Below, piece after piece: positions 8,413 through 10,513 of a stretch of DNA of 10,618 nt. The stretch comes from Microthrixaceae bacterium (GTDB lineage: Bacteria; Actinomycetota; Acidimicrobiia; Acidimicrobiales; Acidimicrobilacustridaceae). Position 1 is the first letter of the stretch; each line of letters starts with the position of its first letter. The stretch is from NCBI GenBank assembly GCA_023264915.1, contig JAHFUU010000003.1, forward strand, positions 7,029 through 17,646, in the 5' to 3' direction. The translations under genes were made by a program, and so were the position numbers. The notes beneath the pieces are model-generated. The model saw only the letters and a list, made by a program, of their open reading frames with translations. It was not told where the DNA came from and searched no databases.

Positions 8413-9585
8413 TCACCTCTTCTTGGACTTCCGGGCACGTGGCTGGAGCGACGGCGATGAGCCCTTGCCCTCGGTCTTCGCTCCAGCAGACCGTTGGCGA
8501 GACCCCTCTGGCCGCCCCGATCCCTGTCTGGCACCCTCGTTCTTCGCACTTGCGCTTCTGTCACTACCCCGCGCCTTGCTGACCGCCTGCTTCTTGTTGA
8601 CTGCCTGCTTCTGGCGAGCGCCTTGGCCTTTGTTGGATCCTTTGCCGCTTGCCTTGCCGTCTCCAGACGATCCGCCGCGCGCACCTCCTCGTGCCGCACT
8701 AGTTGGGCCAACTGGCTTCGGTTCCTTCTTCGACGCGCGATCCCCGGTGCCGGGGTCGCTCCCACCTCGACGCTTGATCCCATAGATGCTCCGGGATATG
8801 AACCCCTGAAGCCCTACCCGCCAGAGGTTGGAGACTGCGAAGTACAAGACCAAGCCGGCTGGCAGGCTTAGAGAGATCAACGGAAGTACGACCGGCATGA
8901 TCTTCATCAACGTCTGCTGTTGTGAACTCATCACAGCATTGGGGTTACGCCCCTGGATCTGGCGTTGCTGATAGAAGCTTGTAAAGGCTACTATCGCTAT
9001 CAGGAGGACGTAGGGCACTGAGGCGACGAGGCCCTTGACGTTCCAAGTCTCAGTGAGACTCAAGGACAGATCCATGCTGAGGGCGTTCATGGTCGTGGAT
9101 CCCTGCAAGGATTGATAGAGCTGCGAGTTGTGGTCGAGATAGGCGGGATCGAACGGTGTGTACCATGCTCTGGCTACCGAAAGCCCTTGGTTGGTCGCGA
9201 ACTGACCACTGTTGAAGCCGGCCTCATAGCCGATCTCACTGACCCGGCGCGTCAACCCCCGAAGGATCTGGTAGAGGATGAAGAAGACGGGCATCTGCAC
9301 CAGGAGCGGTATGCACCCACCCAATGGATTGATGTTGTTCTCGCGGTAGAACTTGAGCAGCTCCTCGTTCTGGCGTTGGCGATCGTCCTTGTACCTCGCT
9401 TGGATCTTCTTCATTTCAGGTTGAAGCTGTTGCATGACCATCATGGACCGTGTGCTCTTCAACACCAACGGTGTAGTCACAGCCATTACCAACAACGTCA
9501 GCAGCACTATTGAGGCTGCGTAGTCTGGTATGAAGGAGTAGAAGGCCGCCAAGATGTTGGCAACAAGGTCATAGAGAAGGTTCAT
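8413..9585 (-). CDS. yidC: Membrane protein insertase YidC/Oxa1 (short form, long basic C-terminal tail)
   Basis: The protein has 390 residues and belongs to the Gram-positive-type YidC family without the large periplasmic domain. It inserts membrane proteins alone or with SecYEG. The first helix is at about 22-43 (SIVLLTLLVMAVTTPLVL), with the groove arginine probably R46. A charged cytoplasmic hairpin follows at about 55-85 (NEELLKFYRENNINPLGGC at its end). Further helices lie at 90-110, 186-205 and 228-262. Residues 270-390 are a strongly basic, Gly/Ser/Ala/Gln-rich tail with a small internal repeat (KQAVNKKQAV), like the ribosome-binding tail of Oxa1. ATG 9585 is chosen because it overlaps the yidD stop as ATGA and begins at the conserved N-terminus. 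The frame stays open further upstream but only as a shadow of yidD. Confidence 0.95.
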   Translation of the reverse strand: MNLLYDLVANILAAFYSFIPDYAASIVLLTLLVMAVTTPLVLKSTRSMMVMQQLQPEMKKIQARYKDDRQRQNEELLKFYRENNINPLGGCIPLLVQMPVFFILYQILRGLTRRVSEIGYEAGFNSGQFATNQGLSVARAWYTPFDPAYLDHNSQLYQSLQGSTTMNALSMDLSLSLTETWNVKGLVASVPYVLLIAIVAFTSFYQQRQIQGRNPNAVMSSQQQTLMKIMPVVLPLISLSLPAGLVLYFAVSNLWRVGLQGFISRSIYGIKRRGGSDPGTGDRASKKEPKPVGPTSAARGGARGGSSGDGKASGKGSNKGQGARQKQAVNKKQAVSKARGSDRSASAKNEGARQGSGRPEGSRQRSAGAKTEGKGSSPSLQPRARKSKKR

Positions 9586-9947
9586 GTCCTCACAGCCTCG
9601 TTGGCGTCGGCGGAGTTTGGGGCACCGCAAGGCGCATGATCTGTCGATTTTGGCACCATGCGTGCCGGCACAGGATCCCACCCTGCCGGGCCCCACGGAT
9701 TGCATCGCAAGATCCGGCGGACACTCAGGTGCCCTCCGTGGACCAAGCCTTGGTCTTCGAGGGCCGCAAGCGTGTAGCTCGAGCAACTGGGCACGAACCG
9801 GCACGGTGACCTGCGCCGGGCCGCAAGGCGCTGATAGCCCCGGACACACCAAGTTGCCGCCCTCACAGGCAAGCTGGGTTGTCGAGCTGGTTGAACTGCA
9901 AGAGGTGCGTCGGGGGCGCAGCCCCAATGGTTGGTCGTTGGGCTCAC
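9582..9947 (-). CDS. yidD: Membrane protein insertion efficiency factor YidD
   Basis: The product has 121 residues. The conserved core runs from about 36 to 94: RGYQRL (36-41), CRFVPSCSSY (49-58) with its paired cysteines, RCNPWG (81-86) and DPVP (91-94). YidD acts near YidC to help insert membrane proteins. GTG 9947 is chosen because AGGAG lies 7 bases upstream and the codon overlaps the rnpA stop (GTGA). It gives about 28 residues before the core; a GTG at 9866 would remove most of them but lacks a ribosome binding site. The tail after DPVP is polar and extra. The gene ends in an ATGA overlap with yidC, so translation is coupled at both ends. Confidence 0.92.
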   Translation of the reverse strand: MSPTTNHWGCAPDAPLAVQPARQPSLPVRAATWCVRGYQRLAARRRSPCRFVPSCSSYTLAALEDQGLVHGGHLSVRRILRCNPWGPAGWDPVPARMVPKSTDHAPCGAPNSADANEAVRT

Positions 9948-10423
9948 TGAAATGCTCCTGCTTGCTCCAAAGCGCGGTGAAGGTCGGCGCGTAGAGCATC
10001 AAAGTCCAGATCAGACACACCAGGGACGGCCGAAAGCAAGTAGGCGCCGTCTCTCAGCATGCCTGCGCGATCGAGTGACCGAAGGCATTCGAGCAGACGC
10101 CTACGAACCCGATTTCGCGTTGGCGCTGTGCCGATCTTTCTCGTCAGAGCGAAAGCGATGCGAGGTGGTGGGTCGCCTGGAAGAAACGAGACCATCACGA
10201 TCTCGCCCCGCCCACGGTGACCCTTCCTCGGCAGGTGGTGCAGTGTGAGCTGGTCGCGGACACGCCAGATCAAGCGGACAGGCGGTGGCGACCCTTGGCC
10301 CGCCTGTTGCGAATGACCGCTCGACCGCCACGCGTCGACATCCGGTGGCGGAATCCGTGCCGGCGTGCCCGCCTTCTGTTGTTCGGTTGAAACGTCCTTT
10401 TCACCTTGCGTCTCCTTGTCCAC
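9944..10423 (-). CDS. rnpA: Ribonuclease P protein component, with a 50-residue N-terminal extension encoded across rpmH
   Basis: RnpA is the protein subunit of RNase P, which matures tRNA 5' ends. The conserved body starts near residue 51 ([18 protein letters not shown]). It includes [15 protein letters not shown] (86-100) and the RNR signature RNRVRRRL (103-110), and ends with [13 protein letters not shown]. The frame can start at GTG 10423, preceded by GGAGGG at 10427-10432 with short (3-base) spacing. The resulting 159-residue protein has an extension whose codons 7-52 contain the whole rpmH gene in another frame. The alternative start is TTG at 10273, which overlaps the rpmH stop (TTGA), has no ribosome binding site and gives a normal 109-residue RnpA. 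I am sure of the gene but only slightly prefer the long form. It ends in a GTGA overlap with yidD. Confidence 0.9.
10270..10404 (-). CDS. rpmH: 50S ribosomal protein L34, nested inside the rnpA frame
   Basis: This 44-residue frame is an unmistakable L34. It opens [18 protein letters not shown], continues with [12 protein letters not shown], and ends [11 protein letters not shown], matching the family's conserved HGFR, M-T-GR and KGR-RL positions and its usual length. The start is GTG at 10404, with AAGGAG at 10412-10417 spaced 7 bases, a nearly ideal ribosome binding site. It is read in a different frame from rnpA, and its stop TGA (10270-10272) overlaps a TTG in the rnpA frame. L34 is a basic protein buried in the large subunit rRNA. 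Nesting in rnpA is known from Thermus but is not the usual arrangement, in which rpmH simply precedes rnpA. Confidence 0.96.
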
Positions 10424-10424: not shown

Positions 10425-10433
10425 GGCCCTCCG

Positions 10434-10448
10434 TTCAGGCGTCCTGAA
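10434..10448 (-). promoter_or_regulatory. Small hairpin directly upstream of the rnpA Shine-Dalgarno
   Basis: TTCAGG-acg-CCTGAA (minus strand) is a perfect 6-bp stem with a 3-base loop. It ends one base before GGAGGG (10427-10432). Such a position can tune ribosome access to the first start codon; this role is inferred. Confidence 0.4.
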
Positions 10449-10513
10449 GGAAGAACCTCAGTTGTCCTCGGCTCCGATCAAACTGAACCATCTCTATGAC
10501 CGATGTCACGAAA

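Follow-up and report, generated by a model that had tools for sequence, protein, structure and literature searches.

Introduction

Bacteria rarely have one conserved gene nested completely in another, and the overlap of a stop codon with the next start codon (TTGA, GTGA) is associated with translational coupling. The closest described system is the nested rnpA/rpmH pair of Thermus (Feltens et al., 2003, as related in PMC9841429). That 2022 paper also describes the AUGUG/GUGUG ambiguous start sites of the Escherichia coli genes pqiA, tamA, and narQ, and names the rnpA-rpmH start of Thermus as the one ambiguous site of this type that had been described in bacteria (PMC9841429). A further source mentions gene order only (PMC10490939). 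No report of nested rpmH/rnpA in Acidimicrobiales was found in the open-access literature searched, where PMC9841429 alone among the titles listed dealt with the subject.

Gene organization and start signals of the window

The window, that is, the whole stretch of DNA analyzed, comprises 10,618 nucleotides of a Microthrixaceae bacterium (contig JAHFUU010000003.1). Its minus-strand genes, whose short names were assigned from Pfam families, run in the order rpmH, rnpA, yidD, yidC, jag, rsmG, parA, and parB, and the contig also encodes DnaA (PF00308, PF11638) farther out, past a run of N and in divergent orientation to rpmH. We take this gene set, together with dnaA, to be a typical chromosomal-origin neighborhood. 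The rpmH product is L34 (PF00468, E 1.4e-21; PF00468 and TIGR01030 both above cut-off). RnpA exceeds the PF00825 cut-off of 22.3 bits in both its long form (41.2 bits) and its short form (42.7 bits), and stays below the 38.35-bit cut-off of NCBIfam TIGR00188 (24.9 and 26.3 bits, respectively).

An earlier note on this DNA had placed rpmH inside an open rnpA frame, and its coordinates proved exact. The 44-aa rpmH gene (10270..10404, minus strand, GTG start, TGA stop) lies in another frame within the long form of rnpA (9944..10423, minus strand), whose frame covers the whole of rpmH and stays open for 159 codons, from GTG 10423 until a stop at 9946-9944. The predicted long product has 159 aa and is longer at its N-terminus by about 50 residues, for most of which the rpmH DNA supplies the codons. 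The two start signals named in the note are both present. GGAGGG (Shine-Dalgarno 1, SD1; 10427..10432, minus strand) stands about 3-4 nt before the GTG start of the long frame (10421..10423, minus strand), which is at position -19 relative to rpmH. AAGGAG (Shine-Dalgarno 2; 10412..10417, minus strand) stands 7 nt before the rpmH GTG, within codons 3-4 of long rnpA, and relatives carry GGAGG near its position. The rival start that the note pointed out was likewise found: TTG 10273-10271 overlaps the rpmH TGA at 10272-10270 (TTGA, 10273-10270) and would give a short RnpA of 109 aa (9944..10273, minus strand). Since the GTG start of yidD (9582..9947, minus strand) overlaps the rnpA stop (GTGA, 9944-9947), a stop-start overlap is also present elsewhere in the operon.

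A hairpin that would mask SD1 of rnpA, a point against the nested reading, is predicted at 10428-10453 on the minus strand (CUUCCUUCAGG...CCUGAACGGAGG). The 80-nt stretch was no better folded than its shuffles (z -0.79), and no counterpart of the same form was found in the other -19 genomes. A promoter and terminator scan gave no match.

The note had also cautioned that the rnpA frame might be open by chance in high-GC DNA, which holds for the window by itself. When rpmH was redrawn synonymously 50,000 times, with the L34 sequence fixed and codons drawn as nine genes of the window use them (GC3 0.684, T3 0.163), 29.9% of the redraws left the rnpA frame open throughout the gene (P about 0.30), and taken alone the open frame of the window is unremarkable. 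This chance, the TTGA overlap, and the overlap of the same kind between rnpA and yidD are all consistent with the explanation that only the short RnpA is made, by termination-reinitiation at the rpmH stop (at TTG 10273 here; in relatives at CTG or ATC), with high G+C and the L34 sequence producing the open frame as a by-product. We consider this explanation unlikely. The case for non-random nesting comes from the relatives, through their starts, pattern searches, and stop avoidance, rather than from the window alone.

Two classes of nested start in Acidimicrobiales

An rpmH gene was detected in 33 of 37 genomes of the window's family (f1) and, among 298 genomes taken from the order Acidimicrobiales, in 281. 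The sample consisted of 157 loci: the 33 of the family, and 124 from the 270 genomes of other families in the order that matched. The remaining 146 matches (18 listed and 128 beyond the listing) fell outside it, so that it leans to L34s like that of the window.

A nested start at -19 (ATG, GTG, or TTG in the rnpA frame, with its own Shine-Dalgarno) was found in 15 of the 157 loci. Twelve belong to the 33 loci of the window's family, where they cover six genera and include L030 with its closed frame; together with families f3, f24, and f30 (TTG), the class occupies four families. Shine-Dalgarno and start are typically GGGAGGCCCGATGGTCGAGGAGGCACCCCGTG. An SD1-like motif at -31 to -22 was present in 15/15 of the -19 representatives (13 genera), compared with 2/23 of the -4 class described below and 0/29 of the non-nested rpmH genes with a GTG start. 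Locus L062 has ATG at -19, no SD1 resembling those of the others, and TTG at the junction; its ATG is a probable coincidence, and the locus was set aside and counted with the non-nested ones. A DNA pattern of ATG or GTG at -19 with GGAGG before rpmH, which takes no account of the rnpA frame, was present in 16 of 397 order genomes, from families f1, f3, and f24; the sequence of the window departs from it. Nine of the 16 were already among the 157 loci and seven were new, and the frame was open in 15 of the 16. This pattern replaced an earlier one with fixed SD1 spacing, which gave 6/397 matches and missed most known cases.

The second class has ATG at -4 (ATGRGTG), with one Shine-Dalgarno common to both starts. 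It comprises 14 of the 157 loci, from families f8, f10, f16, f30, and f39 (13 genera), and all 14 are open and in frame with RnpA. Acidiferrimicrobium sp. IK (L174) is a member. When a named genome collection was scanned for ATGRGTG plus the first rpmH codons, again with no account taken of the rnpA frame, 19 records were retrieved, all labeled actinobacterial and eight of them already in the 157. The frame was open into RnpA in 18/18 testable records, the contig of the nineteenth ending inside rpmH. The ATG -4 pattern had no match in 396 genomes of the phylum; as it also demands a fit to rpmH that an uncounted share of them meets, no conclusion is based on this result. Near-cognate codons at -4 with an open rnpA frame were observed in L058 (ATC), L060 (ATT), L126 (ATC), L061 (CTG), and L134 (ACG); they are possibly near-cognate nested starts or decayed ones.

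Both positions recur in protein databases. The long RnpA of L004 had 702 matches, that of L054 had 604, and that of the window had 38; among the matches listed, at most 120 per query, were 259 proteins. The predicted N-terminus fell at -4 in 89, at -19 in 71, and elsewhere in 77 of the 237 proteins that could be anchored on the rpmH start by the motif used (22 could not). As these N-termini are choices of gene callers and the queries carried the extension, a source of bias, they support only the recurrence of the two positions.

Stop avoidance and history of the nested frame

The wobble bases of rpmH are the first codon bases of the rnpA frame, so that a stop requires a codon ending in T with AA, AG, or GA directly after it. 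Openness in high-G+C genomes is therefore weak evidence, and stop-making wobble sites were for this reason compared with other wobble sites. The rnpA frame was open through rpmH (codons 2 to 43) in 45 of 46 nested genomes (22 at -19 and 24 at -4), compared with 50 of 94 non-nested loci that have RnpA in the same frame. T occupied 1/296 stop-making sites in the nested genomes and 87/653 in the non-nested loci, whereas at other wobble sites the corresponding counts were 188/1638 and 577/3295. At about genus level, nested genomes had zero stop-making T's, where permutations within strata of T content gave a mean of 10.7 (P 0.00015). This test was not tree-corrected and ignored deeper kinship; it took a single genome from each genus for which a genus code was used, and it counted 17 added loci singly among its 38 "genera", including the same-genus pairs G771/G313 and G247/G110. 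Chance openness, which stands for the window alone, is rejected for the lineage by this test.

The explanation by short RnpA alone leaves several of these results without account, namely the conservation of a start at -19 that has a Shine-Dalgarno to itself, the -4 ATG, the avoidance of stops limited to nested genomes, and DNA patterns that predict an open frame.

The note had proposed that relatives be compared at this locus. The comparison supports conservation of the upstream start together with its Shine-Dalgarno and the open frame, and stops are avoided; part of genus g2 (family f1) lacks these features. The stops in close relatives that the note would have counted against nesting do occur in genus g2, in 13 of 15 loci without the -19 start and in one of six with it. 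The frame there is thus open in 5/6 loci with the start and 2/15 without (Fisher P 0.0055).

L030/L186 retains the ATG at -19, meets a stop at +23 after 14 codons, and has CGAGG instead of SD1, while L059/L183 of the same genus keeps the ATG at -19, SD1 (AGGAGG), and the open frame. Judged by these sequences, the state of L030/L186 looks like a recent loss of nesting. It would also agree with the upstream start encoding a short leader peptide that controls rpmH initiation, with incidental continuity into RnpA. We regard such a leader as very improbable, as the frame stays open through rpmH in all but one of the nested genomes and RnpA lies in that frame in 29/29 nested loci, against 94/128 others. 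On a FastTree phylogeny of RnpA plus YidD, a short alignment that is unreliable in detail and in which gain and loss look alike, the nested state changed at least 23 times over 174 loci (11 changes for -19 and 13 for -4).

Junction starts as an alternative source of RnpA

A standard start (ATG, GTG, or TTG) is present at the rpmH/rnpA junction in 5/29 nested loci and in 86/128 other loci. Strong as the raw counts are, this depletion lost significance once the comparison was confined to tree-independent pairs (6 pairs, median p 1), and it was dropped as support for nesting.

Forty-two of the 157 loci have neither a nested start at -4 or -19 nor a standard junction start, and in 19 of them the frame is closed inside rpmH. 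Where a closed frame coincides with the lack of a standard start, RnpA must begin at the CTG that shares bases with the rpmH stop (CTGA), or one codon later at ATC or ATT. RnpA can evidently start at such codons in closed-frame loci, and it might do so elsewhere. Loci L014-L028 of genus g2 (frame closed inside rpmH in 13/15) and L137-L139 of family f59 (closed in 3/3) have no ATG, GTG, or TTG start that could be found for RnpA, which probably begins there at the CTG on the rpmH stop or at the ATC one codon on. That closed-frame genomes without standard starts must use CTG, ATC, or ATT is a point in favor of RnpA being made solely in its short form. The overlapping CTG is found in 38 of the 42 loci and also in 25 of the 29 nested loci, where it is the strongest point against the nested start as the only source of RnpA. 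The CTG looks conserved because a C-ending last codon is followed by TGA. The window is the only one of the 33 family loci with TTG at this codon, the other 32 having CTG, and L084 of the -4 class has GTA in place of CTG, TTG, GTG, or ATG.

The two forms may also both be made and be functionally equal, the long one from the nested start and the short one from the junction start, an account that overlaps with nesting and that we hold possible, if somewhat doubtful. In at least 5 of the 15 -19 representatives, a standard start is available as well, either on the junction or shortly past it (the window with its TTG, L003, L191, L193, and L196; in the pattern-search sets, the RnpA position of L196, L172, and L188 was misplaced, their junction-start lists being invalid and their frames valid), whereas 24 of the 29 nested loci have no standard junction start.

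An ATG at +46 of rpmH, in the third frame, which is the open frame of RnpA there, was observed in L036, L040, L048, L064, L065, and L108. It is probably a by-product of L34 His-Gly; L040 and L048 have no standard junction start.

The N-terminal extension of RnpA

The RnpA sequences with solved structures (11 distinct ones) match the profile from position 53 or later, that is, they match the long form from about residue 53, near the start of the short form. The structure model of the long RnpA of the window (35 sequences) had a mean pLDDT of 78.4. The RnpA core is modeled with confidence (block means of 90-98 from residue 61), and residues 1-50 have block means of 44-58. Such low values suggest that the extension, which is rich in P, Q, R, and S, is probably disordered. 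The solved structures, and a model that is confident only from about the same point, would also be expected if RnpA were made in the short form alone. With no counterpart in solved structures and with predicted disorder, nothing points to a use for the extension, and it looks like a tolerated tail rather than a useful part of the protein.

Public annotation places the start of RnpA within the extended protein in two cases. P0025, from a contig equal in length to that of a nested locus (G023:C12), is annotated with 91 aa and begins inside RnpA, and P0123, that of Acidiferrimicrobium sp. IK, is annotated with 125 aa from a start on ATC. This suggests that the RnpA proteins of nested loci are misannotated and cut short.

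Proposed mechanism of nested initiation

Taken together, rpmH nested in rnpA, with a long RnpA begun at the nested starts, is the reading that we favor with good confidence. The long RnpA is probably made from the nested starts in these lineages and probably in the window genome too. We are less confident that the window genome uses the long form exclusively; some short RnpA may be made there from the TTG. From the positions and frames, the conserved start with its Shine-Dalgarno, and the stop avoidance, we infer that both proteins are made, in competition and in unequal amounts.

According to this proposal, one mRNA would carry two competing initiation sites 19 nt apart. SD1 and GTG 10423 would begin RnpA, with an extension of about 50 residues read through rpmH DNA in the -1 frame, and Shine-Dalgarno 2 and GTG 10404 would begin L34. 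The starts are too close for two ribosomes to initiate simultaneously, so that initiation at one would exclude the other. L34, which is needed in ribosomal amounts, would be served by the better-spaced Shine-Dalgarno (7 nt), and RnpA by the tighter one (about 3-4 nt). Spacing and competition may thereby yield abundant L34 and little RnpA from a single transcript. Families of the order that have starts 4 nt apart could reach this outcome through one common Shine-Dalgarno.

Whether much of the order sets the ratio of L34 to RNase P protein by competing nested initiation is a broader question, to which we give an even chance of a positive answer. In that event, two geometries, a shared Shine-Dalgarno at -4 and a doubled Shine-Dalgarno-plus-start at -19, would have been gained or lost repeatedly, alternating with CUG/AUC starts of RnpA on the rpmH stop and perhaps with near-cognate -4 starts (ATC, ATT, CTG, ACG).

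Comparison with known systems

The nesting described here is real and conserved, a known but rare arrangement in a new variant and in a phylum unrelated to Thermus. With a second, unrelated lineage in which there are two geometries, seemingly some losses, and a named member without the label of a MAG, Acidiferrimicrobium sp. IK, the question of why rpmH and rnpA combine their starts becomes testable. The lineage also allows one to test how a start site divides ribosomes between frames.

The E. coli ambiguous sites, as described in PMC9841429, share with the window the competition of two starts in two frames served by one or two Shine-Dalgarno motifs (two in tamA). In contrast, the E. coli starts overlap (AUGUG/GUGUG) and pqiA has a short alternative ORF, whereas in the window both frames encode conserved proteins (PMC9841429). 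Stop-start overlaps occur in the window twice, as TTGA between rpmH and rnpA and as GTGA between rnpA and yidD, and the long rnpA frame is independent of them.

The Thermus pair, as outlined in PMC9841429, agrees with the window in that rpmH lies wholly within a longer rnpA frame and is read in another frame. It differs in geometry, and the case is separate from Thermus, as the earlier note had suggested: the window belongs to the phylum Actinomycetota and has starts 19 nt apart, a ribosome-binding site for each, a GTG start for rpmH, and TTG at the junction. A single nucleotide between the starts and one shared Shine-Dalgarno, absent from the window, are found in its -4 relatives, which have the same geometry as Thermus with one GGAGG. 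As expected of a nested pair of the Thermus kind, the start and the open frame are kept among relatives, part of genus g2 excepted.
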